DNA of 64,000 nt from an uncultured Bacteroidales bacterium (GTDB lineage: Bacteria > Bacteroidota > Bacteroidia > Bacteroidales > Muribaculaceae): the NCBI GenBank assembly GCA_902774055.1, contig CACYGX010000007.1:1-64000 (forward strand), written 5' to 3'. Shown here piece after piece: positions 23,828-42,099 of the stretch. Made by a program: the position numbers and the translations under genes. The stretch's first letter is position 1; the number at the start of each line of letters is the position of its first letter. The notes under the pieces were generated by a model, which was given only the letters and a program-made list of their open reading frames with translations, had not been told where the DNA came from and did no database searches.

Positions 23828-24139
23828 TCAACGCACCACCACCTTGCGCGACCACTGATTGCTGCACTTGACGATATAGAATCCCTTGGGGAAATCCACC
23901 GTAGTGCGCTGGTCGGCGCTCACGCGAACCACCTTGACTAGTTGTCCAGTAATCGAATACACGTTAAAAGTGGCGTCACTACTGCCTGCAGTGAAGACGA
24001 TACGGCCCTCGGCACCCTGCGCGGTAGGTCCCGTCTGAGCGGTATCAACGCGCTGAGGCAGGAAGTTGTCTGACACTGGGATAGCCTGTACGGCGCCCAC
24101 TGTCAACAGGATGGTTAATATGTAGAGCAAACGTCTCAT
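23828..24139 (-). CDS. Small secreted protein dominated by a T9SS sorting-domain-like fold
   Basis: 103 residues from ATG 24139; an upstream in-frame TTG is rejected because the signal peptide MRRLLYILTILLTVGAVQA starts at this ATG. After a linker, the rest reads as a type IX secretion C-terminal domain: an FNVYSITGQLVKVV strand pair, then TTVDFPKGFYIVKCSNQWSR and KVVVR at the end. Such domains are normally attached to a large cargo that they send to the cell surface. Here there is essentially no cargo. It may be the remnant of a truncated exoprotein, an adaptor, or a real mini-protein. It lies just downstream of the C10 cluster. Confidence 0.7.
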   Translation of the reverse strand: MRRLLYILTILLTVGAVQAIPVSDNFLPQRVDTAQTGPTAQGAEGRIVFTAGSSDATFNVYSITGQLVKVVRVSADQRTTVDFPKGFYIVKCSNQWSRKVVVR

Positions 24140-27014: not shown

Positions 27015-29387
27015 TCAGCTGAGGCCCAGCAAGATATCGATGAGGGCCGACACATCGCCAATGCTCACATTCTCGTCACCATCGATGTCTGCACAGACGA
27101 GGCAAATGGTGTTGTCCACACCCAGCAAGTAATCAATCAGGCTGGAAACGTCAGCGATGTTTACCGACTCATCGTGGTTGACGTCGCCCAGATCAAAGTT
27201 GTGTCCACCGTCAACGAGCGTTACAATCTGGGTCTCACTCCAGTCGCTCTCGGTGCCATCGGTGTAATGGGCCTTGACCTGATAGAAGAAAGTCTCGCCA
27301 GCGGTAAGGTCCTTCACGGTATAGGATTTGCCCGTGATTTCAGTGATCAGGCGATAGTTGGCATCGCCACTCTCGGTCGATTTGAGGGTGGCGGCAGTAG
27401 CGTCGCCAGCATAAATCTTGATGGCCCTGATCATGGGATAGTAACCAGCCTTGAACGAAATCTTGTCGCCCTCGGCACAATCAAGCACAACCTTGGTTGA
27501 CGCATAGTAGAACGGCAATTCAATGGTCTGGCTGGCCATACTCGTAGAAATGGTCAATTCTGACGGGTCACCCCACGAGCCATAACTGCGGGCAATGACC
27601 TCGACAGTCACCTTATCATAGCCCTTAAGGTTCAAGGCATCGGTGGTGATGACGCTGTTGCGATAAGGCATGATGCATCCGCCCTCGAGATTGAACTCGG
27701 TACCCGTGAACGACCAGCCCTCGGGCAGGTAGTCGGTAGCATGCGAAGCCTGGTTGGTGGGACTCATCTTGGGCAAGGTGCTGAAGTCAGCCTCCTCGAG
27801 CAGGATATAGTCAGGCTTGCTATAGACCTCAAGGGTATAGCCGTTCACGTTGTTGGCGGGCGTCTCGTCGGTCCAGTTGGCTCGGAACGAGGTGAGCGTA
27901 ATGCCTGACGGGGCAGCGGGTTGCAACACGGGCGGATAGATCTCGAGCGGTGCGTTGCCATGGAGTGTGATGGTCATGGGGGCAGCGCCGTCGCTGGTGC
28001 AAACGATGGTGGCAGCATTTGTTCCGATAACCTGAGGGGTATAGGTAACCGTGATGTCGCAACCGGCATTGGCAACATCTTTATCTACAGTAACGGCATC
28101 GAGGCTGAACACACCGTCGACATCGTTCAGCGTCAGGGTCACATCCTCAGTCAAGTTAGTGCCCTTGAGACTGATTGTGGCACTGGAGGGCTTGCCTAAA
28201 TAAGCCTGCATGTCAACCACATTGGGATAAGCCTGGAGGCGCGGATTCTGGTAATCGGCAGGCGGCTGGATGCCGATGACCATCTGTTGGCCAGTGCCGA
28301 AGGTGTTGCCGTTATAAGTAAAAGCATTCAAGGCGAAGAAGCCGTTTCCCCTGCCATTCCAGCCCCAGTTCACGTGAAAATTGCCGTCGGCATCATAACC
28401 GTCAATATTGAAGGCATGTCCCGCGCCCGTCGTGTTTTCATAGGCACAATAGACGATGGGGCGGCCTGCCGAGAGTTCAACCTGCATCAGAGTGGCCCAT
28501 TGGGCATCGCTATAATTGGCATATCCCAGGTCATCCGACTTGAACAAGAGTTGGGCGTTCTGGTCATACTCAAAAAACTTGACAGCACGCAAGATGTCAT
28601 TACCATAGGCACCACTGCCGCTGATGGTATAATCCATCTCCTCGACCTGTCCGATATAGCGCATCAAGTGGGCGACAGCGCTGGCCTGAGCGGCATTATA
28701 GCCTTCGGTGTATCTGTCAAGCATATTGGCCCAGTCAAAAACCGTGGGAGGCAGTTCGGGCAACGAGACGCCATAGGTCGGCATGGTGTAGGGCGGTACT
28801 GTGGGTGTTTGCTGCTGAGGGTATTTCCAGTAGTGGAAAACCATCGACAGCGAGGTGGCAGGACAACCCGTATAGCAAGTATCAGTGCCAAAAACGGGGC
28901 ATTCGTTCCAGTAGGGCGCATCCTGGCTCCACTGGGCCGTGAGCAACGGATTCACTGACTGATCAACCCGCTGGGGCGCCTTCAGCGAGGCATTATTCAC
29001 CTGAATGCCAGGATTGTCCTGAAGATACTCCAGCTGGTGCTTGTAGAGCGACAGCCAATACTTCATGTTGGCGGGCATAGCGTTCAAGTCAAGGGCACGA
29101 TCACCATAGGCCAAAATATCACGCGCGCGGTCGTCACCCGACACTACGACAAAGCCGTCGTTGGCGCCAAAGATGTAATAGACTGGTAGTGTGGCGTTTT
29201 TGGTATTCTTCTCGATATAGACGAGTTTGAAGTCACTGGTTGACGAGGCCATCATTCGTCCATTAGTGGCTTGACTGGACAAGAAGCGTTGAGCCTTGAG
29301 CAGCGCCGAAGCCTGATCAACATTAGCCGACCAGATTTGGGTTGCCGACAACAAGAGTACGGCAAGAAACAGATGAATTCTTTTCAT
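27015..29387 (-). CDS. Secreted C10 cysteine peptidase with CxxC-dockerin (C10-2)
   Basis: 790 residues. Signal peptide 1-20; Spi-type propeptide (YYIFGANDGFVVVSGDDRAR) to about 130; catalytic domain with Cys175 (YTGCPATS), His324 (GAGHAFNIDGYD) and a conserved HVNWGWNG; Ig-like domain about 395-485; split Fn3 with an inserted LPEGWSFTG-type module; dockerin at the end. The dockerin repeats DVNHDESVNIAD and DIDGDENVSIGD are joined by a linker containing CLVC. All catalytic marks are intact, so it is probably active. The -7 box TACCTTTG lies 43 bp upstream of the ATG. Confidence 0.93.
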   Translation of the reverse strand: MKRIHLFLAVLLLSATQIWSANVDQASALLKAQRFLSSQATNGRMMASSTSDFKLVYIEKNTKNATLPVYYIFGANDGFVVVSGDDRARDILAYGDRALDLNAMPANMKYWLSLYKHQLEYLQDNPGIQVNNASLKAPQRVDQSVNPLLTAQWSQDAPYWNECPVFGTDTCYTGCPATSLSMVFHYWKYPQQQTPTVPPYTMPTYGVSLPELPPTVFDWANMLDRYTEGYNAAQASAVAHLMRYIGQVEEMDYTISGSGAYGNDILRAVKFFEYDQNAQLLFKSDDLGYANYSDAQWATLMQVELSAGRPIVYCAYENTTGAGHAFNIDGYDADGNFHVNWGWNGRGNGFFALNAFTYNGNTFGTGQQMVIGIQPPADYQNPRLQAYPNVVDMQAYLGKPSSATISLKGTNLTEDVTLTLNDVDGVFSLDAVTVDKDVANAGCDITVTYTPQVIGTNAATIVCTSDGAAPMTITLHGNAPLEIYPPVLQPAAPSGITLTSFRANWTDETPANNVNGYTLEVYSKPDYILLEEADFSTLPKMSPTNQASHATDYLPEGWSFTGTEFNLEGGCIMPYRNSVITTDALNLKGYDKVTVEVIARSYGSWGDPSELTISTSMASQTIELPFYYASTKVVLDCAEGDKISFKAGYYPMIRAIKIYAGDATAATLKSTESGDANYRLITEITGKSYTVKDLTAGETFFYQVKAHYTDGTESDWSETQIVTLVDGGHNFDLGDVNHDESVNIADVSSLIDYLLGVDNTICLVCADIDGDENVSIGDVSALIDILLGLS

Positions 29388-29429
29388 TGGGTTTATGTTT
29401 TGTTACAAAAGGTTGTTAGTTAATGGCGG

Positions 29430-29437
29430 CAAAGGTA
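29430..29437 (-). promoter_or_regulatory. Probable -7 box of C10-2
   Basis: TACCTTTG on the minus strand matches TAnnTTTG, 43 bp before the ATG. The -33 element is unclear. Confidence 0.4.
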
Positions 29438-29477
29438 ATACATCTACCTCAATCTTTGCCCATAAGTCCCATTAAAA

Positions 29478-29517
29478 ATCGTGGGATAAGGAAAAAGCAC
29501 ATCCCTCACCCCACGAT
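29478..29517 (-). terminator. Terminator-like hairpin after C10-3
   Basis: ATCGTGGG (29478-29485) and CCCACGAT (29510-29517) form a perfect 8-bp stem with a long loop, 21 bp beyond the stop of the 29539 gene. Confidence 0.5.
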
Positions 29518-29538
29518 AATGGTTATCACTCGATTGTG

Positions 29539-31674
29539 TTAAAGGCTCAACAGCATGTCAATAAGAGCGCTGACATCGGCAATGGTCACACCGTCCTTGC
29601 CATTCACATCGGCACAGATGGTGCAGATGGGATTGTTCTCGTTATCCAGCAGATAGTCGATGAGGGCGCTCACGTCGGCAATGGTCACACCATCTTTATG
29701 GTTCACATCGCCCACCTCATAGTCATGGGGAGCAGGGCCATTGTCAACGAGGGTCACCGTCTCCATGTTGCTCCAAGCGCTTCGGGTACCATTCTCATAA
29801 TAGGCCCTGACACGATAGGTGAAGGTGCCGCCAGCGGCGAGGTTGCTCACGGTGTAGAACTTGTTGGTGATATCGGTAATCACGCGAGAAGTGGAGTCGC
29901 CCTCCTCAACAGGAAGCCTATAGACCATCTTGGCAGCATCGGCCGTAGCACTGTAGATATCGATTTGGGCAATGACAACGCGCTTGCTGCTTTCGGTGGT
30001 GGCAAAGGTCACCTTCTGATTCTCATTGGGTTCACAATTAAGGACAACAGTATAACTGTTCTCGGCGCTCACGGTAACTGTTGCCATGCTGTTACCACAT
30101 GCAATGATTACAGGCACATCGGTATCAGAGCTAAATGGCAACATGGTAACGACTACCGTCATCTTGCCTCCGCTCTGGGTCATATCGAGGGCTGGCGTCG
30201 TCAGCGAGCCGGTATAGCCATTGCCACCCAAGCGCAAACCACGGCGGTTTTCATAGAGGTGGCTAAATTCCCAGCCCTTGTTCGTGCACAGATTATCAAT
30301 TTTAGTGAGTTCACGTGATCCATTTTCCGAGCATCCGGGGAAGGTCTCGGTGAAGACTTTTTCATACACACCAGGCTCACTGCCGTCATCAGTGTTCACC
30401 TCCAGCGTGTAGCTGGTGACGTTCTCGGCAGGGGTCTCGTCGGTCCAGTCGGCACGGAACGAGGTCAGGGTGATATAGTCCTCGTTGGCGGGTAGCATCA
30501 CGGGGTCATAGGCCTCGATGGGTGCGGGAGGCTCAATGCCCATGACCATCAATTCGCCCAGGCTATAGCTGTAACCCTGATTGTTGAAGGCACGCAAGGC
30601 GAAATAGCCGTTACCCGTGCCACTCCAGCCCCAGTTGATGGAGTACAAGCCACTGCCGGCATCGTAGCCATCGACATTGAAGGCGTGGCCATAGAACGAG
30701 TTATAGGCACTGCTATAGCTGTAAGCGCAATAGACCACGGGACGACCAGCGGCGAGCTCTTCCTGGAGCATCACACTCCAGTCAGCATCGTTGATGATCA
30801 TGTCTTCGCCATGCGTGTCAAAGTTCAGTGTCGCTTTATACTCGACATGGGCATTCACATAGCCAAACAGGTGGCAAGCACGCAGGATGTCATCCTCCCA
30901 GGCCTCGCTACCCTCATTGGTGTAGTCCATCTCCTCGGCCTGGCCAATGTAGCGCATGAGCCATGCCACAGCATTCCGCTGAGTGTCATTGGCGCTAAAG
31001 TTGTACACTGGCAGCATGTTAGCCCAGTCAAAGGTGATTGAAGGCAACGGGGGAAGGATAAACTTGCGGGTACGGGTCGTGTAACCGGGGACCTCGGGCG
31101 TGGGCTGTGTGGGATACTGCCACTTGTAGAAAATCTGAGCCAGCGAGGTGGTGGCGCAACCGGTCAAGCCACGGCGGTCACCGTCCATGGGGCACTGGTT
31201 GTAGTAGGGGTAACCCTGGTCCCACTTGGCCTCGAGCATCGGCTCAATGGTCTCGGTGCGATTGGCCGTCAACTTGGGCTGTTCTACCACCAGGCCAGGA
31301 TGTGCCTGCAGGTACTCGATTTGACCCTTGTAGTTGTCCAGCCAGAACTTCATGTTCTCGGGCAGGGTATTCATATCATTCAGCGGATGGTCGCCATAGC
31401 CCAGAATCTGCTGAGCGCGGTCATCACCCGCTACAATGACAAAGCCGTTATCGGTGTTAACGACATAATAGGCGGCCTTATTGGCATTGGTCGAATTCAG
31501 TTCCTGATGCATCCATCTGACAGTAGGGGCCACAGGAGCATTGAAACCGTTTCTAGCGGCTTGACCCATGAGGAAACGCTGTGCTAACGTTTTTGCTGAC
31601 AGTGCATCAACATCAGCAGCCATTCCTTGCATCGCCACTAACAGGAGGGCGGCAAAAAGAAGTAATTTTCTCAT
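29539..31674 (-). CDS. Secreted C10 cysteine peptidase with CxxC-dockerin (C10-3)
   Basis: 711 residues, the shortest paralogue. Signal peptide 1-19; propeptide (YYVVNTDNGFVIVAGDDRAQ); catalytic domain with Cys173 (LTGCATTS), His330 (YGHAFNVDGYD) and SINWGWSG. The Ig-like domain seen in the neighbours is missing: Fn3 follows the peptidase directly. The Fn3 insert is of a third type (GWEFSHLYENRRGLRLGG, then TPALDMTQSGGKMTVVV). The dockerin has DVNHKDGVTIAD and DVNGKDGVTIAD with CTIC between them. It has its own -7 box at 31746-31753. Confidence 0.93.
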   Translation of the reverse strand: MRKLLLFAALLLVAMQGMAADVDALSAKTLAQRFLMGQAARNGFNAPVAPTVRWMHQELNSTNANKAAYYVVNTDNGFVIVAGDDRAQQILGYGDHPLNDMNTLPENMKFWLDNYKGQIEYLQAHPGLVVEQPKLTANRTETIEPMLEAKWDQGYPYYNQCPMDGDRRGLTGCATTSLAQIFYKWQYPTQPTPEVPGYTTRTRKFILPPLPSITFDWANMLPVYNFSANDTQRNAVAWLMRYIGQAEEMDYTNEGSEAWEDDILRACHLFGYVNAHVEYKATLNFDTHGEDMIINDADWSVMLQEELAAGRPVVYCAYSYSSAYNSFYGHAFNVDGYDAGSGLYSINWGWSGTGNGYFALRAFNNQGYSYSLGELMVMGIEPPAPIEAYDPVMLPANEDYITLTSFRADWTDETPAENVTSYTLEVNTDDGSEPGVYEKVFTETFPGCSENGSRELTKIDNLCTNKGWEFSHLYENRRGLRLGGNGYTGSLTTPALDMTQSGGKMTVVVTMLPFSSDTDVPVIIACGNSMATVTVSAENSYTVVLNCEPNENQKVTFATTESSKRVVIAQIDIYSATADAAKMVYRLPVEEGDSTSRVITDITNKFYTVSNLAAGGTFTYRVRAYYENGTRSAWSNMETVTLVDNGPAPHDYEVGDVNHKDGVTIADVSALIDYLLDNENNPICTICADVNGKDGVTIADVSALIDMLLSL

Positions 31675-31745
31675 AAAAAAAGTGTTATTGATATGGTTAA
31701 ATAAATTGATTGGTTAGATTCAGTCACTAGAGTTTAGAAGATGGA

Positions 31746-31753
31746 CAAAGGTA
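31746..31753 (-). promoter_or_regulatory. Probable -7 box of C10-3
   Basis: TACCTTTG on the minus strand, 72 bp before the ATG of the 29539-31674 gene. No clear -33 box. Confidence 0.4.
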
Positions 31754-31844
31754 GAGAAAAAAATACATATAACTGTCAATTATGGCAGAATACTTACTAA
31801 AAACTATCAATTTTCCAACACCAGGCCCCGACATAAAGCAAAAC

Positions 31845-31880
31845 TGTGGGGCAAGGGAGTTTGTTTTCCCCTGCCCCACA
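31845..31880 (-). terminator. Terminator hairpin after C10-4
   Basis: TGTGGGGCA (31845-31853) and TGCCCCACA (31872-31880) form a perfect 9-bp stem, with further pairing of AGGGA and TCCCC inside. Located 28 bp after the stop of the 31909 gene. Confidence 0.65.
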
Positions 31881-31908
31881 ACAGTGTTTAATTAAGGTTT
31901 AATACCTA

Positions 31909-34900
31909 TTAATTCTCCAAGAGGTAATCAATAAGGGCGCTCACGTCGGCAATGGTCACGCCATCCTTGCCATTCACATCGGCACAGATCGTGCAGCAGG
32001 GGTTGCTGCTATCCAGCAGATAGTCGATCAGGGCGCTCACATCGGCAATGGTCACACCATCTTTATGGTTAACGTCGCCAAGCTGATAGCCGTGGCCGTT
32101 CTCGAACAGGGTAACCTCCTCGATGTTGCTCCAGTCGCTCTCGGTACCATCGAGATAGATGGCCTTAACCTTGTAGAGGAAGGTACCTCCGGCAGTCAGG
32201 TTCTCAACGGTGTAGAACTTGTCGGTAATACCCTCGATCAAGCGGTAATCGGCACCGCCCGTCTCGGTGGCATTGAAGGTAACAGCGGTAGCGTCGCCAG
32301 AATAAACCTCGATCTGGGCGATATCGGGTGAGTACTGATCCTCGGGCGAGGTAATCGTGATTACATCACCAGTGCTGCCAGTTACTACCCAGCTGTGGCT
32401 GCTGCTATTACTCATGTTATACTCGACAGCTGCGGTCTGGGTGGAACCCACTACAAACCTGCCGCTACCATACTGACTATTGGCGGTGGTAAGCTTCAGG
32501 GTGAAGGTCTTGTTCTCGTAGCCTGCGGGGATGGTATACTTGATGTAGCCATCGGTGGTTGCTGACTGGTGGGTAGCGTTGCGGAAGTAGATGGCACCAT
32601 AGCCGCCATAGACGTTTTCGCCAGACCAAGGTCCGTCGATAGAGGCGATCAATTCAGGTTCGGGCTCGGGCTCTTCAACCTTGGCATTTACCTCGAGGGT
32701 ATAGCTGCTTACATTTCCGGCAGGAGTCTGGTCGGACCAGTCAGCGCGGAACTTGGTGAGGTTGATGTACTGCTCGTCGGCGGGCTGCATCACGGGAACA
32801 GCCTTGGCAAGGGTTGCTGTACCATTCAGGGCGACTGTCACATTCTCGGCATCAGCACTGCTCAAGGTTATTGTAGCGTTTTGAGTGCCAAAGGCCGTGG
32901 GGGCATAGGTAACGGTAACATCCTTACCGTTCATGGCATCGGCGGCGCTGATGGTCGTCGGGGTGATGCTGTAAACACCATTTTCATCGGTCAAAGCCAG
33001 GGTTACGTTACCCGTGAGGTTAGCACCACTCACGTTGATGGTGGCGGTAGCGGTCTCACCCGTGTTGGCGGTCATCTCAACAGCAGTTGGATTCACGCTG
33101 ATAACGGGATTGGTATTCTCAAGCAGGGTTACTTCCTTAACGTTACTCTTGGCAATGGCGTCATTAACGTAGTTGGCTACAACATAGAAGTTGAATGTAC
33201 CACCCTCGGTGAGGCCGGTAACAGTGTAACTCTTGCCCGTGATACCCGTGATGACACGGTAAGTTGCATCACCGGTCTCGGTGGCCTTGAGCTGAACGGA
33301 GGTGAGGTCGCCAGCATATACCTTCATGTACCTCAAGTCAGGCATGCCGCTAGAGGTGAGTTTCACATAGTCGTTGGTGGAACAATTCAGAACGAAGGTG
33401 TACCAATTGAACGAGCTGCCAGAAGGAACTGTCTGGGTCTTAGAGTCAACGCTGGTGGCCACGGTGATGGTGTTGTCCCCCTCGTAGGGCTGAGAGTAAA
33501 CCATCACAGTCACCTTGTCATAGCCCGTGAGGTCGTAGTTACAGCTCTGAACATAGCCGTTGGTGCTCAAGTAGCATGAATTGGTGGTGTTGTAATACTT
33601 CAGGTTGTATTGAGTCCAGCCGGTGGGCACGGTAGCTGCAGCTGTCCAGTCGGTGGTGTCGAGCAGCGCAGCTTCGGGTTGGATGGGATGAGACTCATCT
33701 TGAACATACAGGGTATAGCTCTCCACGTTCTCGGCAGGGGTCTGGTCGGTCCAGGTGGCAGTGAACGATGTCATCGTGACATTGGTGGCGTCGAGCATCA
33801 CGGGAGCATAGGTCTCCAGGGGAGCAGCCTCGGCGGTACCGTTGAGCTTGACAGTCACGGCCTCGGCATCGGTGCTGGTCAACGTAACAGTAGCCTCATG
33901 GGTGCCCACTGCAGCGGGATCATAGGTTACAGTGACAGTCACACCATTCTCGGCCTGAGTGGCACTGATGCTGGTCGTGCTCAGCGAGAAGACATAATCG
34001 CCGCTGAGGGCCAAATTCACGTTGCTGGTGAGGTTGGCACCGGTAACGGTGAAGGTGGCGGTTACAGGAGTGCCCACAGTCGTGTTCATCGTGAGTGTGG
34101 CGGGGTTAACCGTAATTCTGGGATCGGTAAGGGCTCCAGCGGGAGGCTCGATGCCGATAATCATGGCCTCGCCATAGTTGAAGACGTAGGAGCCGGCTTG
34201 ACCGGTTGCACCAGTAGAAGTGGTGAAGTTGTGCAGTGTGCAATAGCCATTGCTGTCGCCGCTCCAACCCCAGTTCACGTAGTACTGGCCATTGGCATTC
34301 ACGCCAAACACGTTGAAGGCGTGACCTGCAGGCTGATAGCTGCTGCAGTCATAAGCCAGATACTCGATGGGGCGGCCGTTATGCAATTCATTCAGCATGA
34401 ACTCGTTCCACTGGGCATCGGTGTACTGCTGCGGGCCATTGGAGTAACTCCAACCCGATTGCTGGAGTTCGGTGAGCAGGAGGTACTGGGCATCGGTGTA
34501 ACCCATGTTGAGGACACCCTGGTAAATTTCGGGGTCGTTAGCACCACTGGCGCTGCTGCTGTAATAATAATCGGGAATAGACTGACCAGCATAGCGCATC
34601 AGCCATGCCACAGCATTGGCCTGAGCGGTTGAGTAGGAAGTATTGGTCGGGCCCGTGTACTCGTCGATGATGTTAGCCCAGTCAGCTGCGCGTTCAGGCA
34701 GAGCCGCAGCAGAAGCGCCTCCAGTACCCGATATAGCTGCACATGCAGGGTACGTCTCAGGCCATTTCCACTTGTAGTAGCACATACTCAGCGAGGTTGC
34801 CGGGCAGCCAGTGACAGAGTTAGAGGGGCACTGGTTATTGTAAGGAGAGCTCTGGTCCCAGTTGGCGGTTACCAGCGGTGCAACGGGGGTGGTGGCAAAC

Positions 34901-35301
34901 TTGGGAATCTTTACCGGCACCATGGTACCAGCCTTGAGGCCGTCAATCTGATATTTGTACTTGTTGAGCAGCCACTGCATGGCGGGAGGGATGTTATTAA
35001 TGTCGAGAGCACCTTCCTCACCGTACATCAGAATTTCGGGTGCCAGGTCATCACCGGCAACCACTACATAGGATTTTGCTGAATTGAAGATGTAGTAGTC
35101 CACAGCAGAGGGCTTGGCTACTGAGGTTTCAGCCTTAGCGAGCTGGAGGCCGGAAACAGCCGATGCTTTAAGACGACCAGCGGCTACTTGTTTTTTTAGA
35201 AACGCGTTGGCTGCAGCCTGTGCCTGCGATGAGGACACATCAGCAGCCGACATTGGTAGCGCCGCAAGAACGACGGCTAAAAGAAATAAAATTTTTTTCA
35301 T
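31909..35301 (-). CDS. Large secreted C10 peptidase with duplicated Ig/Fn3 modules (C10-4)
   Basis: 1130 residues. Signal peptide 1-19; propeptide; catalytic domain with Cys166 (VTGCPATS), His327 (AGHAFNVFGVN) and YVNWGWSG. Then the Ig-like plus split-Fn3 unit occurs twice (about 390-700 and 720-1065). The first Fn3 carries the VPTGWTQYNLKYYN-type insert, the second a PWSGENVYGGYGAIYF-type insert. The dockerin ends with DVNHKDGVTIAD and DVNGKDGVTIAD around CCTIC. The internal duplication makes it the longest member, possibly extending the catalytic domain further from the surface or adding binding sites. Confidence 0.93.
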   Translation of the reverse strand: MKKILFLLAVVLAALPMSAADVSSSQAQAAANAFLKKQVAAGRLKASAVSGLQLAKAETSVAKPSAVDYYIFNSAKSYVVVAGDDLAPEILMYGEEGALDINNIPPAMQWLLNKYKYQIDGLKAGTMVPVKIPKFATTPVAPLVTANWDQSSPYNNQCPSNSVTGCPATSLSMCYYKWKWPETYPACAAISGTGGASAAALPERAADWANIIDEYTGPTNTSYSTAQANAVAWLMRYAGQSIPDYYYSSSASGANDPEIYQGVLNMGYTDAQYLLLTELQQSGWSYSNGPQQYTDAQWNEFMLNELHNGRPIEYLAYDCSSYQPAGHAFNVFGVNANGQYYVNWGWSGDSNGYCTLHNFTTSTGATGQAGSYVFNYGEAMIIGIEPPAGALTDPRITVNPATLTMNTTVGTPVTATFTVTGANLTSNVNLALSGDYVFSLSTTSISATQAENGVTVTVTYDPAAVGTHEATVTLTSTDAEAVTVKLNGTAEAAPLETYAPVMLDATNVTMTSFTATWTDQTPAENVESYTLYVQDESHPIQPEAALLDTTDWTAAATVPTGWTQYNLKYYNTTNSCYLSTNGYVQSCNYDLTGYDKVTVMVYSQPYEGDNTITVATSVDSKTQTVPSGSSFNWYTFVLNCSTNDYVKLTSSGMPDLRYMKVYAGDLTSVQLKATETGDATYRVITGITGKSYTVTGLTEGGTFNFYVVANYVNDAIAKSNVKEVTLLENTNPVISVNPTAVEMTANTGETATATINVSGANLTGNVTLALTDENGVYSITPTTISAADAMNGKDVTVTYAPTAFGTQNATITLSSADAENVTVALNGTATLAKAVPVMQPADEQYINLTKFRADWSDQTPAGNVSSYTLEVNAKVEEPEPEPELIASIDGPWSGENVYGGYGAIYFRNATHQSATTDGYIKYTIPAGYENKTFTLKLTTANSQYGSGRFVVGSTQTAAVEYNMSNSSSHSWVVTGSTGDVITITSPEDQYSPDIAQIEVYSGDATAVTFNATETGGADYRLIEGITDKFYTVENLTAGGTFLYKVKAIYLDGTESDWSNIEEVTLFENGHGYQLGDVNHKDGVTIADVSALIDYLLDSSNPCCTICADVNGKDGVTIADVSALIDYLLEN

Positions 35302-35375
35302 AATTACTGGTAATTAAATGAATTAATGGTATTTAAACTAATTACTGTTGTTTCAGATTCTACATTTAGAACGCG

Positions 35376-35407
35376 CAAAGATAATAAATCTATTATTAAT
35401 ATTCAAA
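35376..35407 (-). promoter_or_regulatory. Promoter of C10-4
   Basis: On the minus strand TTTG (35407-35404), a 20-bp spacer and TATCTTTG (35383-35376) form an exact Bacteroidetes promoter, 75 bp before the ATG. Confidence 0.7.
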
Positions 35408-35463
35408 AATATTCATCATTTTAACACCAATACGGCTTAAAAATCGACAAACAACGAAATATA

Positions 35464-35491
35464 GAGCACAAGCGCCTTGGCACCTGTGCTC
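35464..35491 (-). terminator. Terminator-like hairpin after C10-5
   Basis: GAGCACA (35464-35470) and TGTGCTC (35485-35491) form a 7-bp stem about 30 bp past the stop of the 35520 gene. Confidence 0.5.
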
Positions 35492-35519
35492 CATGATAAA
35501 ACTATTTCCCTATCGACAA

Positions 35520-37886
35520 TTAATTGCCCAAGAGGATATCAATAAGGGCGCTCACGTCGGCAATGGTCACGCCGTCAACGCCGTTGACATCGGCACAGAT
35601 GGCACACGCATTGCTCTCGACACCCAGCAGGTAATCGATCAGAGCCGAAACGTCACTAATACCAATCTCATGATTGTGGTCAACATCACCAGGCTCATAG
35701 CCGTGGCCGTTCTCAAACAATGTCACCCTCTGTGAATTGCTCCAGCGGCTCTCCACTCCGTTGATGTAGTGGGCTTTCACCCTATAGTAGAATGTACCGG
35801 CAGCAGTAAGATCCGTCACGGTGTAGAACTTATCGGTGATACCCTTAATCAGACGATAATTGGCATCGCCCTGCTCTGTCGCCGTGAGGGTATTAAGGTC
35901 GTTCACATCACCTGAATAGACCTTAATCAAGGCCATATCGGGCGAATAATTGTCATCGGTCGAAGTAATGGTAATCTTCTCGCCAGCGCTGGCAGTAACC
36001 AGCCAAGTATAGGTCTCGCCAGAATTGAACTCATGGCCAACAGCAGCCGTCTGGTTGGATCCGACAGTGAGGTTGCCACTACCATAATAGCCACTGGAAG
36101 TGGTTATCTGCATGGAGAAGACTTCATTTTCGTAGCCTTCGGGAATGGTAAAGGAGATATAGCCTCCGTAGTTACCGAAATAATAGGCGCCATTACCTAC
36201 CATGACATCTTCACCGCTCCAGGGATCAGTAAGTGTTACGCTCGAGTAACTGCCTGTATAGACGGTACCGTCAAGACTACCAAGCAATTCAATGGCAGGT
36301 CGATTGGAGACCTCAAGCGTGTAGCTCTCAACATTGCCGGCAGGTGTTTCATCGGTCCAGTCGGCACGGAACTGGGTCAGGTTGATGTAAGATTCATTGG
36401 CAGGCAACATGTGGGGAAGATAGGTCTCGAGCAAGGCCTCGCCATTGATGGTAACGGTCTTGTCCTCGGCACCAGGGCAGCTCAGGGTGATGGTTGCCGT
36501 GTGAATGCCGGCTTCCAGGGGTGAGTAAGTCACGGTGATAACCTTGCCAGCCTCCTGCTCGTTGACGGCGACGCTATTGGCGTCGATCGAGAAGCAACCG
36601 TTCTCGTCGTTGAGCGTCAACGTGATAGCGCTGGTGAGTTCCTGACCCTTCACAGTAAAGGTGGTAGTAGCACTCTTGTTGATATAGGCATTGATGTCTA
36701 ATCTAGAAGGACTCACCTTGATGGCAGGACCCTGGACGGGCGGCTGGATGCCCATAATCATCTGCTGCTCGATGTTGAAGGTGTAACCACTCGAGGAGAA
36801 GGCATTGAGGACAAAGTCGCCATTGCCATCACCACTCCAGCCCCAATTCACATGATAAGTGTTGTCGACTGGATTGTAACCGTCAACATTGAAGGCATGA
36901 CCACTCCAGCCATACCATGAATCGTAGTCATAGGCGCAATAAACGACAGGACGACCCTCATACATCTCGGCTTGGAGCAGTGCTGCCCACTCCTCATCGT
37001 TGTAGTACTCCTCGACAACGTTGCCATCATCGTCGGTGACTGTCTTAAACAGCAACTGGGCATCCTTGTCATACCCGAAGAATTTGACGGCGCGCAGGAT
37101 GTCAGCACCATAAGCGCCACTGCCGCTAGGCGTGTAATCCATATGCTCCTCCTGGCCCACATAGCGCATCAGCCAAGCTACAGCATCGGCCTCGGCCGTG
37201 TTATATCCGCTAATGTACTTGTCGCGCATGTTATCCCAGTCGAAGGTGATCGACGGGAGGGCGGGTATCTCTAAATTATAACTGTTATTGGTGTAGCCCT
37301 CGACGGGGGGAGTCGGGTCGGTCGGATACTTCCAGTGATAGAATACCATCGACAGCGACGTGGCGGGGCATCCCGTCAAGCAATACGAACCGTTGTAAAC
37401 GGGACAATGGTTGTAGTAGGGGGCATCCTGGTCCCACTCGGCAGTGAGCATGGGCCCGACTTTGCCCGCTCTTAGGCTATTATTGAAGGTGGGCTTATCT
37501 ACGACCATCCCGGGATGTGCCTGCAGATACTCGATCTGGTTCTTGTAGGTGCTCAGCCAGAACTTCATGTTATCTGGCATGCGCTTCATGTCAAGAGGCC
37601 TATTGCCATGACCAAGAATCAGGTATGCACGGTCATCACCCGAGACGATCACAAACCCCTTATCGGAGTTGAAAATGTAGTACACAGCCCTGTTGGCCTG
37701 AGTGGAATTCACCTCAGTGTGTAATAACTTGACATCCGGGGCGGCTTGGCCTGCAAGACGTTGACCGGTAGCATTAGAATGCAAATAACGTACGGCGGTA
37801 GCTCTGGCAGCAGTCACATTGACATCTGCTGCCGTGGCCTGCATCACTGCCAAGAGCAATGTGGCAATAAATAATAATTTTTTCAT
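35520..37886 (-). CDS. Secreted C10 cysteine peptidase with CxxC-dockerin (C10-5)
   Basis: 788 residues. Signal peptide 1-19; propeptide (YYIFNSDKGFVIVSGDDRAY); catalytic domain with Cys173 (LTGCPATS), His330 (SGHAFNVDGYN) and YHVNWGWSG; Ig-like domain; split Fn3 with a PWSGEDVMVGNGAYYF-type insert that is close to those of the 31909 (second unit) and 38134 proteins; dockerin with DVDHNHEIGISD and DVNGVDGVTIAD around CAIC. The -7 box TAACTTTG lies 88 bp before the start. Catalytic marks are intact. Confidence 0.93.
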   Translation of the reverse strand: MKKLLFIATLLLAVMQATAADVNVTAARATAVRYLHSNATGQRLAGQAAPDVKLLHTEVNSTQANRAVYYIFNSDKGFVIVSGDDRAYLILGHGNRPLDMKRMPDNMKFWLSTYKNQIEYLQAHPGMVVDKPTFNNSLRAGKVGPMLTAEWDQDAPYYNHCPVYNGSYCLTGCPATSLSMVFYHWKYPTDPTPPVEGYTNNSYNLEIPALPSITFDWDNMRDKYISGYNTAEADAVAWLMRYVGQEEHMDYTPSGSGAYGADILRAVKFFGYDKDAQLLFKTVTDDDGNVVEEYYNDEEWAALLQAEMYEGRPVVYCAYDYDSWYGWSGHAFNVDGYNPVDNTYHVNWGWSGDGNGDFVLNAFSSSGYTFNIEQQMIMGIQPPVQGPAIKVSPSRLDINAYINKSATTTFTVKGQELTSAITLTLNDENGCFSIDANSVAVNEQEAGKVITVTYSPLEAGIHTATITLSCPGAEDKTVTINGEALLETYLPHMLPANESYINLTQFRADWTDETPAGNVESYTLEVSNRPAIELLGSLDGTVYTGSYSSVTLTDPWSGEDVMVGNGAYYFGNYGGYISFTIPEGYENEVFSMQITTSSGYYGSGNLTVGSNQTAAVGHEFNSGETYTWLVTASAGEKITITSTDDNYSPDMALIKVYSGDVNDLNTLTATEQGDANYRLIKGITDKFYTVTDLTAAGTFYYRVKAHYINGVESRWSNSQRVTLFENGHGYEPGDVDHNHEIGISDVSALIDYLLGVESNACAICADVNGVDGVTIADVSALIDILLGN

Positions 37887-37973
37887 AAATGTTTTGGTTT
37901 ACTGGTTTTTATAGTAAGAGTAGTTCTATCACATAAAACGTTAGGTGTGAGTAATCGTCACGATTGACACCCG

Positions 37974-37981
37974 CAAAGTTA
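37974..37981 (-). promoter_or_regulatory. Probable -7 box of C10-5
   Basis: TAACTTTG on the minus strand, 88 bp before the ATG of the 35520-37886 gene; no clear -33. Confidence 0.4.
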
Positions 37982-38071
37982 CAAACAAACCTTTTTCTTA
38001 CATAATTTTTTACAACATTTTTTCAAAAATATGCCTTTTTATTACATCACGCTATTATCACCTGAGTCAAG

Positions 38072-38305
38072 AAACAAGGAGCTCGAGCAACAGCCCAAGC
38101 TCCTTAGCTTATTCAAGATTTCTCAACAAGTGATTACATGCTCAGGAGCATGTCGATAAGGGCACTGACGTCGGCAATGGTCACGCCGTCCATGCCATTC
38201 ACATCGGCACAGATGGGGCAAACTGCATTGTTCTCGCTATCCAGCAGATAGTCGATCAGGGCCGACACGTCACTGATGCCCACCTCATGGTTATGGTTCA
38301 CATCA
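38072..38305 (-). repeat. Long direct repeat: terminator plus dockerin DNA, copy 1
   Basis: About 230 bp covering the terminator, the stop codon and the dockerin codons of the 38134 gene is repeated at 39617-39850 with high identity, including the non-coding stretch CAAGATTTCTCAACAAGTGA. Conservation through non-coding DNA points to recent duplication or gene conversion, not selection on protein alone. Confidence 0.85.
38076..38105 (-). terminator. Terminator after the 38134 gene
   Basis: AAGGAGCT (38076-38083) and AGCTCCTT (38098-38105) form an 8-bp stem. The same hairpin occurs at 39621-39650 after the next gene. Confidence 0.55.
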
Positions 38306-39492
38306 CCAATATCATAACCGTGGTCAGGGCCACTTATCTTACCAATAATGATGTAGTTGTTCTCTAAACTTACTGTCACCTCATAATCGCCCGCAGTCAA
38401 AACACGGATATTTCCATAGTTGTCAAAACTCAATGGCAGGGTTTGGCCCAAATACTCATCCTTTAATACAAACTCGCCATCGCTCTCTGGACCGAAACGA
38501 TAAGGTAACAGGTAGTTCCAACCGCCCAGGTCATCAACGTCAAGCTCGGTAGAGAAGCCGAAGGTCCTGTCCTCTTCGACATGAATTGTGGCAGTGTAGA
38601 GTTCGTTCTCGGGATCATATTCCATCTTGGTGCCGATATCGGGTGCCCAATACTGGTCATCAATGTCTCCCAAGATGTGAACAAAGGGGACAAAGGGCTC
38701 TTCTTCAAGGGTGGTAAAGACATCGGGCTTGCACCAATCACTCAAGCTGCCGCCCTCGCCGATGGCCTGAACCTGCACCTCGTAATCGGTATTGATTTCA
38801 AGGCCCTCGATGGTGTAGGTCGTCTTGCTGAGGTTGTTCACATAGGTCCACTCGTTGGCCCTGAGTTTGGCGCTAGTAGCGTCTCCCGAATAAACCGCCA
38901 TCAGAGAAATGCTGGGAGAATACTGGGAATCGGGGGTCGTGATGATAATCTTCTCGCCCGAACTTGCGGTAACAACCCAATAGTATGTATCACCAGCCGA
39001 GAAATAATGGGTCACAGCCTCGGTCTGTGGCGTGGCCACAGTCAAGTTGCCGGCACCATTCGCGTTGGTGGCATAAGTGGTCACCATCAATGTGAAGGTG
39101 TCATTAGAATAGCCCTCAGGAATAGTGTAAGTGATGTTTCCGTAGGATCCATCGTTATTGTAATTGTTCCTGAAATAGATCTCTCGGTTGCCGGCACGCA
39201 CATTGGTGCCGCCCCAGGGAGCAGGCAACGTGATCGCGTCATAGGAGTTGCCAGTGTAAGAAGCAGCAGTAACCGAATGGAGCAGAACCGACTCTGCAGG
39301 CTCCTCAGCATACAACCTGTAGCGCAGGTTCCATGCGCTATTGTAATCATCGCTCCATGTGACCACACAACTGTGGGTGCCCGGTTCAACGTTCATGTCG
39401 GTGGGAGCTGGAACATCACGATTGGAATTGATGCCTGCCGAAACAGTCATTGCGGCAGCAACACTTACCAAGACAAATACAAATTTCTTCAT
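38134..39492 (-). CDS. Secreted dockerin protein without a peptidase domain
   Basis: 452 residues. Signal peptide MKKFVFVLVSVAAAMTVSAG; an Fn3 domain starting APTDMNVEPGTHSCVVTW, split by a PWGGTNVRAGNREIYF-type insert that strongly resembles the insert of the 35520 peptidase; closing Fn3 strand YEVQVQAIGEGGSLSDW. A second beta domain (about 275-390, LGDIDDQYWAPDIGTKMEYD) looks like the SusE/SusF-type starch-binding fold. The dockerin has DVNHNHEVGISD and DVNGMDGVTIAD around CPIC. There is no propeptide and no C10 catalytic domain, so it is a binding component. The substrate (protein or glycan) is unknown. Its promoter has TACATTTG at 39547-39554. Confidence 0.85.
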   Translation of the reverse strand: MKKFVFVLVSVAAAMTVSAGINSNRDVPAPTDMNVEPGTHSCVVTWSDDYNSAWNLRYRLYAEEPAESVLLHSVTAASYTGNSYDAITLPAPWGGTNVRAGNREIYFRNNYNNDGSYGNITYTIPEGYSNDTFTLMVTTYATNANGAGNLTVATPQTEAVTHYFSAGDTYYWVVTASSGEKIIITTPDSQYSPSISLMAVYSGDATSAKLRANEWTYVNNLSKTTYTIEGLEINTDYEVQVQAIGEGGSLSDWCKPDVFTTLEEEPFVPFVHILGDIDDQYWAPDIGTKMEYDPENELYTATIHVEEDRTFGFSTELDVDDLGGWNYLLPYRFGPESDGEFVLKDEYLGQTLPLSFDNYGNIRVLTAGDYEVTVSLENNYIIIGKISGPDHGYDIGDVNHNHEVGISDVSALIDYLLDSENNAVCPICADVNGMDGVTIADVSALIDMLLSM

Positions 39493-39546
39493 AAAATCAC
39501 ACTTATATAAATTGTTAATGGTTTTCGGCTCTGGTTATGTGATTTG

Positions 39547-39554
39547 CAAATGTA
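39547..39554 (-). promoter_or_regulatory. Probable promoter of the peptidase-less dockerin gene
   Basis: TACATTTG on the minus strand, with ATTG 20 bp upstream in the -33 position; 55 bp before the ATG. Confidence 0.45.
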
Positions 39555-39616
39555 CTCCTTAAAAGTCACATACGCAATAGAAACGCGATTTTATTAGTCT
39601 TCGGAACTTAGCATGA

Positions 39617-39850
39617 AAACAAGGAGCTCGAGCAACAGCCCAAGCTCCTTAGTTTATTCAAGATTTCTCAACAAGTGATTACATGCCCAAGAGCATGTCG
39701 ATGAGGGCGCTGACGTCGGCAATGGTCACGCCGTCCTTGCCATTCACATCGGCACAGATGAGGCAAACGGGATTGTTCTCGCTATCCAGCAGATAGTCGA
39801 TCAGGGCGCTCACGTCGGCAATGGTCACACCATCTTTATGGTTCACGTCA
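39617..39850 (-). repeat. Long direct repeat: terminator plus dockerin DNA, copy 2
   Basis: Second copy of the roughly 230-bp repeat described at 38072-38305. It carries the same hairpin (39621-39628 with 39643-39650) and the start of the next C10 gene's dockerin. Identity drops towards the first dockerin repeat, where this copy instead matches the 29539 and 31909 genes. Confidence 0.85.
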
Positions 39851-42099
39851 CCCACTACATAGTCATGGGGAGCAGGACCGTTTTCAAACAGGGTCACTTG
39901 TTGAACATTGCTCCATGCGCTCTCAGTACCATCTTGATAGATAGCTTTTACCTTGTAGAGGTAAGTTCCCGCATCAGTCAAGTTGCTAACAGTGTAGAAC
40001 TTGTCGGTGATTCCTGTAATCAGGCGATGAGCCGTATCACCATTTTCGATAGCACGCAGTTCAGGAGCGCTCACCTCGCCTGCATAGATCTTGATGGTCT
40101 GAATCGTGGGATAATAGGCATTGGCATAGAATTCTACGTAGTCATTATCGGCACAATCCAGGACGGCCGTATATTCCTCATAACTACCGGTAAACTCAAA
40201 ATCTTGAGAATCTACACTGGTTCTCACAGTGAGAGTAGAATTATACCAAGGCGAGTAATTCTTAGCAGTGAAGACCACAGTAACCTTGTTAATACCCGTG
40301 AGATCCAGGGTATTAGTGCGGATATAGCTAGCGCTGGTGATAGCCACACCACCCTCATCAAAGAAGATTGAATAAGGACCTACAGTCCAGCCTTCGGGCA
40401 AGTAATCCATTGCTTGACCTGATGCTGTGCTCCAATCTACATCGGCGAGCATGCCACCGGCACCCGGTTTCTCATTCACCTCGAGAGTATAGCTAGCGAC
40501 ATTCTCGGCAATGGTTTGGTCGGTCCAGTCGGCACGGAACGAGTTCAAATGGATGTAAGCACTGTCAGCAGCAAGCATCACGGGGTCATAGACTACAAGA
40601 GGTGCATTAGTGGCTACGCCCTTCAGGGTGACAACCTTGCTCTCGGCACCATCGCTGCTCAGGGTAATGGTGGCATTATGGGTACCAACGGCCTGGGGAG
40701 CATAGGTCACAGTAACAGTCTTACCCTCGGCTACCTCTTCGAGCGTAACAGTTGTGGCATCGGCCGTGAACACGCCGTTTTCATCGTTAAGGGTCACGGT
40801 GATGTTACCGGTTAAGTTAGAACCCGATACATCAAAGGTTGCAGTTGTGGTCTCGCCTGCATAGCACGACATAGTGATTTCTTGTGGTGTAGCGAAGATG
40901 CGGGGATCGGTAACCAAGCCGGGAGGCTGCACACCAGCAAAAAAGACAGGCCAGAAGTCATAAACCATCATCCAGCCATCGGTCGAGAATGCATTGAGGG
41001 CATAATAAGTATTTAATGCAGGACTCATACCGAAGTTCACATGGTACATGTCATTCTCAGCATCATAGCCGTCAACATTGAAGGCATGACCACTGATACC
41101 CGTGGAGTCACTCGACATGTCATAGGCACAATAAACCAAGGGACGACCTGCACGCAACTCAGCCTGGATGGCCTCACCCCATTGTTCATCATTGTAGTAC
41201 TCTTCTTCGGTCCAGGTTCCCTGATGGAGTTCCTCTTCGGTATCAGGGGAGTCACACTTTTTCACGAGATGAGCACCCTCGTCAAAACCGAACAGTTGGA
41301 TAGCCTGAAGAATCTCGGGATTCTCACAGCCACTCTTATCGGTGTTATAGTCGATGTGCTCGGCTTGACCCACATAGCGCATCAAGTAAGCGATAGCGTC
41401 CTCGTTCACCTGAGGCAGGCGATCCAAGTCCACCTCATAGTAGGTATCATACATATTGTCCCAGTCAAAGGTGTACTCGGGCAGCGCAGGCACATTAATT
41501 TTAGATTTCGGACACTGGAAAGCATCCATAGCGGGTGCCGTTTTGGGATATTCCCAGTACCTCATTACCTGAGCCAGCGAAGTGGCGGTACAGCCCGTCT
41601 TGCAATAGGTGGAACCCACCTTGGGACACTGCTTGTTATAAGGCTTGTCTTGAGCCCAAGCAGTTTGCAGCAAGGGATCCACCGACACGCCACGGGTGGC
41701 AAAGCGCTTCTGCACTACCATTCCGGGATGAGCCTGCAGGAATTCCATCTGCTTCTGATAGATGTTGAGGAAGTACTGCACGGCTTCGGGCAGGTCGTTG
41801 ATGCTGGACAGGGAACCGCTGCCATAGGCGAGAATTTCCTTAGCGCGGTCATCACCTGAGATGATTACATAGCCATTGTCGGTGTTGACAATGTAGAAAG
41901 CTGCCAGAGCGGCATTGCTTGAGTTCTTCACCTCATGGGTCCACTTGACAGCGGGTGCCGAGGTCATGAAGCGGCCATTGACAGCTTTGCCCATCAAGAA
42001 GCGCTGTGCACTCTGTTGAGCAGTTGCCAGGTCAACAGTGGCTGCCGTGAGTTGCATTGCAGCAAACACGATAGCAATTAATACGAGAATTTTTTTCAT
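39679..42099 (-). CDS. C10 peptidase homologue with altered active-site loop (C10-6)
   Basis: 806 residues. Signal peptide 1-19; propeptide (FYIVNTDNGYVIISGDDRAK); C10 domain with Cys170 (KTGCTATS) and His338 (SGHAFNVDGYD) present. The following strand reads YHVNFGMSP (352-360) instead of HVNWGWGG: both tryptophans of the loop are replaced. In streptopain this loop lines the active site, so activity or specificity may be changed. It continues with an Ig-like domain, a split Fn3 with an LPEGWTVGPYSIFF-type insert, and a dockerin with CLIC between DVNHKDGVTIAD and DVNGKDGVTIAD. The promoter -7 box is at 42183-42190. Confidence 0.9.
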   Translation of the reverse strand: MKKILVLIAIVFAAMQLTAATVDLATAQQSAQRFLMGKAVNGRFMTSAPAVKWTHEVKNSSNAALAAFYIVNTDNGYVIISGDDRAKEILAYGSGSLSSINDLPEAVQYFLNIYQKQMEFLQAHPGMVVQKRFATRGVSVDPLLQTAWAQDKPYNKQCPKVGSTYCKTGCTATSLAQVMRYWEYPKTAPAMDAFQCPKSKINVPALPEYTFDWDNMYDTYYEVDLDRLPQVNEDAIAYLMRYVGQAEHIDYNTDKSGCENPEILQAIQLFGFDEGAHLVKKCDSPDTEEELHQGTWTEEEYYNDEQWGEAIQAELRAGRPLVYCAYDMSSDSTGISGHAFNVDGYDAENDMYHVNFGMSPALNTYYALNAFSTDGWMMVYDFWPVFFAGVQPPGLVTDPRIFATPQEITMSCYAGETTTATFDVSGSNLTGNITVTLNDENGVFTADATTVTLEEVAEGKTVTVTYAPQAVGTHNATITLSSDGAESKVVTLKGVATNAPLVVYDPVMLAADSAYIHLNSFRADWTDQTIAENVASYTLEVNEKPGAGGMLADVDWSTASGQAMDYLPEGWTVGPYSIFFDEGGVAITSASYIRTNTLDLTGINKVTVVFTAKNYSPWYNSTLTVRTSVDSQDFEFTGSYEEYTAVLDCADNDYVEFYANAYYPTIQTIKIYAGEVSAPELRAIENGDTAHRLITGITDKFYTVSNLTDAGTYLYKVKAIYQDGTESAWSNVQQVTLFENGPAPHDYVVGDVNHKDGVTIADVSALIDYLLDSENNPVCLICADVNGKDGVTIADVSALIDMLLGM

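Follow-up and report, generated by a model that had tools for sequence, protein, structure and literature searches.

A dockerin variant with a coupled cysteine pair and histidine pair on peptidases of a Muribaculaceae genus

Dockerins are described as two-calcium modules. In a 64,000-nucleotide stretch of contig CACYGX010000007.1 (hereafter the window), which belongs to the draft genome of an uncultured Bacteroidales bacterium of the family Muribaculaceae (3.17 Mb, 94% complete), six neighboring genes end in a dockerin with two extra cysteines between its repeats. The original prediction, made from the DNA alone, held that the spacing of the cysteines suits a metal site or a disulfide and that the module may be a distinct attachment or sorting tail. 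The question raised by this locus is what the cysteine pair does in a dockerin, and we address it here by asking which residues accompany the pair, which proteins carry it, and how it compares with known modules.

A cysteine pair and a histidine pair occur together in the dockerins of one genome

Ten window genes have a two-repeat dockerin at their C-terminal end, and in six of these a C-x-x-C stands directly before calcium loop 2. As predicted, the six neighboring genes all were found on the minus strand, with the motifs CLVC (27015), CTIC (29539), CTIC (31909), CAIC (35520), CPIC (38134), and CLIC (39679), and in all six the second calcium loop (A-D-[VI]-[ND]-G) follows directly. The other four window dockerins (24325, 47699, 51312, and 53787) have no cysteine at the repeat boundary; that of 51312 has a single cysteine just before loop 1. 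A search of the whole genome for the pattern CxxC-x-D returned 14 places, 13 of which are dockerin tails, compared with 2 for the reversed pattern. These counts, together with the dockerin tail readings, rule out a chance origin of the pair.

Alignment of the CxxC tails of this genome revealed two invariant histidines in the motif H-x-[YF]-x-x-G-D-V-[ND]-H, one at position -6 (six residues before the first Asp of calcium loop 1) and one at loop position 4 (+4). The original prediction caught the cysteine pair and missed this coupled histidine pair. CxxC is present in 14 of the 148 two-repeat dockerins of the genome, and both histidines are present in all 14; among the 134 dockerins lacking CxxC, none has both histidines, one has only the histidine at -6, and three have only that at +4. 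The dockerins were collected by matching to Pfam PF00404 (150 of the 151 matches were listed), with those of the window added, and therefore were not selected for cysteine or histidine. Position +4 is occupied by glycine in 77 of the 148 dockerins, so histidine is not the default residue there. None of the four window tails without CxxC has both histidines together, 53787 having a histidine at -6 only. When a profile was built from the 14 CxxC tails, the same 14 were its top matches in the genome. We refer to tails with this residue set as C2H2 tails; the features of the window are as follows.

27015..27212, minus strand, C2H2-type dockerin tail, gene 27015 (C10 peptidase)
27093..27104, minus strand, CxxC (CLVC) before calcium loop 2, gene 27015
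27174..27203, minus strand, H-x-F-x-x-G-D-V-N-H, His -6 to His +4 of calcium loop 1, gene 27015 (coordinates worked out from the dockerin reading)
29539..29736, minus strand, C2H2-type dockerin tail, gene 29539 (C10 peptidase)
29614..29625, minus strand, CxxC (CTIC), gene 29539
29698..29727, minus strand, His -6 to His +4 of loop 1, gene 29539
31909..32103, minus strand, C2H2-type dockerin tail, gene 31909 (C10 peptidase)
31984..31995, minus strand, CxxC (CTIC), gene 31909
32065..32094, minus strand, His -6 to His +4 of loop 1, gene 31909
35520..35714, minus strand, C2H2-type dockerin tail, gene 35520 (C10 peptidase)
35595..35606, minus strand, CxxC (CAIC), gene 35520
35676..35705, minus strand, His -6 to His +4 of loop 1, gene 35520
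38134..38331, minus strand, C2H2-type dockerin tail, gene 38134 (452 aa, weak fn3 match, no catalytic domain recognized)
38209..38220, minus strand, CxxC (CPIC), gene 38134
38293..38322, minus strand, His -6 to His +4 of loop 1, gene 38134
39679..39876, minus strand, C2H2-type dockerin tail, gene 39679 (C10 peptidase)
39754..39765, minus strand, CxxC (CLIC), gene 39679
39838..39867, minus strand, His -6 to His +4 of loop 1, gene 39679
24325..24513, minus strand, plain dockerin, gene 24325 (no cysteine pair, no histidine pair; its C10 domain falls inside the C2H2 part of the C10 tree described below)

A second class of dockerin was observed among the 134 tails without CxxC. In 39 of these (e.g., L028, L068, and L071) there is one cysteine, at position 2 of calcium loop 2 (ADCN or ANCN), and a tryptophan lies within five residues after helix 3 in 37 of the 39, versus 4 of the 95 others.

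The four residues are conserved among related tails of one genus

Dockerins of relatives were collected from named public contigs (78 loci, all from uncultured Bacteroidales, Prevotellaceae, Porphyromonadaceae, Muribaculaceae, or Prevotella metagenome-assembled genomes [MAGs]) and from further genomes of the genus and family of the window. Several titles of the relatives' contigs name ruminant samples, and many carry RUG names, which we take to denote rumen genomes. The named contigs contributed 120 dockerins, 27 of them with CxxC, and both histidines are in the exact positions in 21 of the 27. Combined with the tails of the window's own genome, and after 27 partial tails were dropped, the pooled set comprised 365 distinct tails. 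The named contigs were found, and the tails of the further genomes chosen, with a profile of the C2H2 tail; the ratio of types in the pool is therefore uninformative, but the coupling of residues within each row still is informative. Dockerins have been reported in rumen Bacteroidetes, according to excerpts of PMC6071333.

CxxC is present in 112 of the pooled tails, of which 110 have His +4, 104 have His -6, and 110 have some histidine between -7 and -1 (111 once -8 is allowed). All four residues are exactly placed in 103 of the 112; of the other nine, seven differ only in a shifted upstream histidine, one (an L090 tail) lacks His +4, and one (L218) lacks both histidines. Of the eight rows without His -6, six have a histidine at -4 or -5 and L205 has one at -8, L218 being the last. 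The 253 tails without CxxC present a different picture: His +4 is found in 19, His -6 in 1, and some upstream histidine in 11, and the only row with both an upstream histidine and His +4 is L194, where the upstream histidine is at -3, in another register.

The concern attached to the original prediction, that wider homologues might lack the cysteines, was addressed by this profile search. Homologues in related genomes keep them, as the 112 distinct tails attest, so that the concern does not hold within the genus; outside the genus none with the pair was found. At E ≤ 1e-8, a cutoff that admits plain dockerins too, the C2H2-tail profile (A2) matched 44 of 297 genomes of the family: the window's own genome, 36 of the 39 other genomes listed for its genus, and 7 not of that genus with one match each. 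The best match was read in 29 of the 43 other genomes, and CxxC was present in 17, all of the window's genus. When the 30 best-match loci are ranked, the type is present in the 18 strongest (the own genome and these 17) and absent from the 12 weakest. No further genome was matched at E ≤ 1e-10 among 392 genomes drawn from the order. Within the sampled family and order, the C2H2 type is found in one genus only.

The upstream histidine changes together with the cysteine pair

A tree of 68 C10 peptidase domains, 42 with C2H2 tails and 26 with plain tails, was used to ask whether the residues change together. The C2H2/plain label requires at least 8 changes on the best tree (5 if only supported branches are counted), compared with 20.9 for shuffled labels; thus, the real label is clustered, yet it switches. 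We then compared pairs that differ in CxxC along supported, nonoverlapping paths of the tree. An upstream histidine (-8 to -1) changed in the same direction as CxxC in five of five supported pairs (P = 0.0625, which is the floor of a sign test with five pairs). The histidine at exactly -6 followed CxxC in 4.7 of 5 pairs on average, and coupling of His +4 was loose (about 2.7 of 5). A tail-only tree, whose 53 columns are too few, gave three supported pairs, with the upstream histidine changing the same way in 2.9 and His +4 in 2.4. Since the upstream histidine tracks CxxC and shifts register rather than vanishing, the firm unit is the upstream histidine plus the cysteine pair. His +4 nearly always accompanies this unit, but it may be an older feature.

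The plain tails within C2H2 groups of the C10 tree look like stages of decay. L214, a plain tail inside a C2H2 group, lacks the first cysteine and His -6 and keeps the second cysteine and His +4, and L203, which is outside the tree, has the same pattern. L197 lacks the first cysteine and both histidines. The related tails missing only the first cysteine of the pair (L197, L203, and L214) thus are missing His -6 too. L195 and L196 lack both cysteines and His -6, with His +4 kept, and all four residues are absent from L131 and window gene 24325. The coupled absence also could arise from whole-tail swaps, above all in these last two, whose tails resemble other classes.

These data bear on two alternatives. 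The first is that CxxC forms a local disulfide or a redox switch in the linker and that the histidines serve something else. It fits the structural models described below, which place CxxC at the start of a helical turn, a common redox geometry, and it fits L218, which has CxxC without either histidine. A disulfide needs no histidine, however, and the cysteine pair is not conserved independently of histidine, either in the five supported pairs or in 111 of the 112 rows. A simple CxxC disulfide therefore is disfavored, and we regard this explanation as unlikely.

The second alternative is shared descent, in which the residues travel together as a tail type, by inheritance or by swapping, without acting jointly. 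Tails of known genus all belong to a single genus, the label is clustered on both the C10 and the tail-only trees, and exchange of whole tails would mimic coupled loss. Register shifts of the upstream histidine and the three tails that lack one cysteine and His -6 are not what whole-tail swaps produce, however; in addition, several other surface positions of the C2H2 tails vary freely, and the type spans two unrelated peptidase families. Descent by itself accordingly seems to us a very improbable account.

C2H2 tails are predicted to have an ordinary dockerin fold

Structure modeling, proposed as a check along with the original prediction, yielded an ordinary dockerin fold. An AF2 model (pLDDT 90) superimposes on 3ul4_B with 0.9 Å over 60 residues, in a fold comparison using VIA-align lists that do not exclude folds other than dockerins. 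The two AF2 models both give the dockerin fold, with CxxC at a one-turn helix. Three of the six window proteins (27015, 29539, and 31909) score above the PF00404 gathering cutoff of 22.9 bits, and the other three score 20.6 to 22.2 bits (E ≤ 5.4e-4). Helix 1 starts with the DV[ST] class in 13 of 13 C2H2 rows counted from the own genome and in 109 of all 112, compared with 87 of 134 plain dockerins of the own genome. In known dockerins this helix faces cohesins, and its class is unchanged in C2H2 tails.

The 12-residue calcium loops also are well preserved in the CxxC tails. In loop 1, D1 and D12 are present in 112 of 112; in loop 2, D12 is present in 112 of 112 and position 1 is Asp in 103 and Asn in 9. 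At position 5 of both loops, where the ligand usually is acidic or Asn, the tails of 29539, 31909, and 39679 have a lysine, and these are the only 3 of the 112 rows with a lysine at this position of loop 1. Calcium binding may be altered in these three because of the lysines, which would fit a module that leans less on calcium.

Excerpts of PMC5934362 and PMC8063739 assign the two calcium loops to opposite ends, or opposite sides, of the module, which makes a single site using both His +4 and CxxC doubtful. In a rough geometry sampling of 13,028 home-made loop-helix models, all four C-beta atoms came within 9 Å in 0.5%, and His -6 was near both cysteines in 6%. These models fit the calcium loop but leave the docking ambiguous; they allow a four-ligand site and do not favor one, and they do not discriminate between a site within a single module and one that two modules share.

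C2H2 tails are associated with C10 and M6 peptidases

In five of the six window carriers, a C10 (streptopain-like) peptidase is combined with a Spi-type inhibitor domain; apart from its dockerin, 38134 shows only a weak fn3 match. The C10 domains are as follows.

28335..28931, minus strand, C10 peptidase domain, gene 27015
30601..31224, minus strand, C10 peptidase domain, gene 29539
34243..34860, minus strand, C10 peptidase domain, gene 31909
36819..37436, minus strand, C10 peptidase domain, gene 35520
41002..41658, minus strand, C10 peptidase domain, gene 39679

The 14 carriers in the own genome comprise 7 C10 and 4 M6 peptidases, plus 38134, a contig-edge fragment (on contig C16), and a 261-aa frame on contig C32 that was not scanned. 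Because the whole genome encodes 24 C10 and 9 M6 domains, at most 22 of the 134 plain dockerins can be on such peptidases, compared with 11 of the 14 C2H2 tails (Fisher P = 3e-6). In the named MAGs, 16 of the 27 C2H2 carriers have a C10 match and 4 have an M6 match; among plain carriers (66 scanned of 87 usable), 10 have C10 and at most 1 has M6 (P = 2e-7, assuming that the C10 and M6 members are different proteins). The exceptions to the peptidase link are three BspA-type LRR carriers in MAGs and 38134. For a rumen consortium, excerpts of PMC7480376 name peptidases as the commonest catalytic partners of dockerins.

C2H2 carriers are clustered in the own genome, and several may share a 3- to 11-kb stretch in other genomes. 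The C10 domains, several of them side by side, and the M6 domains lie in window positions 24325 to 50275 and on own-genome contigs C1, C5, C13, C17, and C21, with seven of the nine M6 domains on contig C5.

C2H2 tails occur in a genome rich in dockerins and cohesin-like domains

The own genome contains 14 cohesin-like stretches and 151 PF00404 matches in its 3.17 Mb, which looks like a cellulosome-like surface system. Its cohesin-bearing proteins, at C13:63894-67701 (L250), C12:66800-70129 (L016), C8:55115-57600 (L249), and C1:118485-124700 (L246), have the layout LRR, cohesin, dockerin, cohesin, and a tail that by eye resembles a T9SS sorting domain, although the TIGR04183 matches do not include this tail. 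Small cohesin-dockerin genes adjoin them on contigs C13, C8, and C1. The cohesins of the genome include those at C13:65712, C12:68261, and C8:56530.

The T9SS sorting domain (TIGR04183) is a C-terminal tail on secreted Bacteroidota proteins with a fold different from that of dockerins. NCBIfam models, TIGR04183 included, gave no match in 39679 or 38134, the two of the six window C2H2 proteins scanned, and none of the eight TIGR04183 matches in the own genome is on a C2H2 tail. With this lack of matches and an ordinary dockerin fold, a separate T9SS sorting tail is not indicated. Elsewhere, a small window gene (23828-24139, minus strand) encodes hardly anything between a start resembling a signal peptide and a sorting tail of the T9SS type (TIGR04183, 29.4 bits). 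At C3:73095-73478 (minus strand), L024 encodes a plain dockerin followed in frame by a weak TIGR04183 match (19.6 bits, below the cutoff), so that a dockerin and a sorting tail may coexist on one protein.

The four residues might instead be a patch, free of metal, that is recognized by a cohesin reserved for peptidases. The strong tie to peptidases is what such an address would produce, and the genome has the 14 cohesin-like stretches. Against this, helix 1, whose start mediates recognition in known dockerins, opens with the class found in most plain dockerins of the own genome, and an exact Cys2His2 set is, in our judgment, unusual for a plain contact patch. This possibility strikes us as no likelier than the disulfide.

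Another alternative is that the metal joins two modules, the histidine end of one and the cysteine end of the other sharing each ion, and that the peptidases clip together without cohesins. The half-sites, like the calcium loops, would be at opposite ends of the module in the dockerins described in excerpts of PMC5934362 and PMC8063739, the predicted fold is the known one, and clustering of the carriers is consistent with pairing. On the other hand, assembly without cohesins is unneeded in a genome that encodes cohesin-like domains, and the crude geometry is compatible with a site within one module. We consider such pairing rather unlikely, slightly more so than the recognition patch.

DISCUSSION

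The C2H2 dockerin is a real, conserved, and apparently undescribed variant of the dockerin. The original prediction knew of no prior description, and our searches of the dockerin literature, including the topics cysteine, zinc, disulfide, and CxxC, likewise turned up no zinc or Cys/His dockerin, nor do the excerpts of PMC5301203, PMC5934362, PMC8063739, PMC6071333, PMC6118326, PMC10266427, PMC5141474, and PMC7480376 describe one. The suggestion of a distinct attachment or sorting tail holds insofar as the variant is distinct and conserved; with an ordinary fold and helix class and cohesin-like domains in the genome, a separate sorting tail is not indicated.

Structural zinc sites usually are made up of a Cys2His2 or Cys2His set, which is what the extra residues provide, and we therefore read these residues as a third metal site. 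Of the two kinds of site originally suggested, metal is the better reading, and the coupled histidines argue against a plain CxxC disulfide. Our preferred interpretation, which is tentative but could well prove correct, is that C2H2 tails form a subtype of dockerin to which a His/Cys metal site has been added, most likely for Zn2+, and that this site is located within one module and stabilizes it. The core of this putative site would consist of the cysteines at -5 and -2 (C-5 and C-2), at the one-turn helix before calcium loop 2, and the upstream histidine on the arm before calcium loop 1, at -6 and sometimes at -4, -5, or -8; the loop 1 histidine at +4 is the likely fourth ligand. The ion would staple the N-terminal arm onto the linker that separates the repeats, and the stapled module would be held together independently of Ca2+ and would be harder to cleave. 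Resistance to cleavage would suit tails on secreted C10 and M6 peptidases, which would be exposed to their own activity and that of neighboring peptidases. Given the unchanged DV[ST] helix class and the cohesin-like domains of the genome, the tails should still dock peptidases onto cohesins. What the data show directly is that the four residues are conserved, that they are absent together, that the predicted fold is that of a dockerin, and that the tails go with peptidases; the metal and its identity, its place within one module, stabilization as the advantage, and docking to cohesins are inferred from these.

If it binds metal in this way, the C2H2 subtype would be the first dockerin with a third metal site, as far as our literature searches show. 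The subtype also suggests that many peptidases of this bacterium, which has about 150 dockerins, are handled separately from the rest of its secreted enzymes, and the tail, a 65-residue peptide, could supply a more robust docking tag. A long shot is that the tails act as homotypic, metal-zipped connectors, the histidine end of one tail and the cysteine end of the next sharing a zinc ion to give scaffold-free clusters of different peptidases, with each tail still capable of binding cohesin. Such connectors, if real, would give the cellulosome-like system of a gut Bacteroidales bacterium a second tier of assembly under metal control.

Like the type I dockerins (PF00404) of Clostridium thermocellum, such as Doc918 (3ul4_B) and Doc48S (2mte), C2H2 tails have two F-hand calcium loops with helices and are located at the C termini of secreted enzymes; they differ in adding C-5 and C-2 before loop 2 and H-6 and H+4 around loop 1. 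CxxC is absent from the linker of 4uyq, 4uyp, and 5nrm, the three solved dockerins aligned across this region. Structural zinc sites of the Cys2His2 kind combine two cysteines, as C-x-x-C, with two histidines; C2H2 tails share this residue set, but the fold and the spacing differ, and the putative site lies inside a calcium-binding module. Another parallel to the proposed site is the clasp of Ruminococcus flavefaciens RfDocScaA, which excerpts of PMC5934362 describe as an extra tie that stabilizes the N-terminal end. Whereas a Trp-Pro stack joins the two termini in RfDocScaA, the tie in C2H2 tails would be a His/Cys site directed toward the linker.
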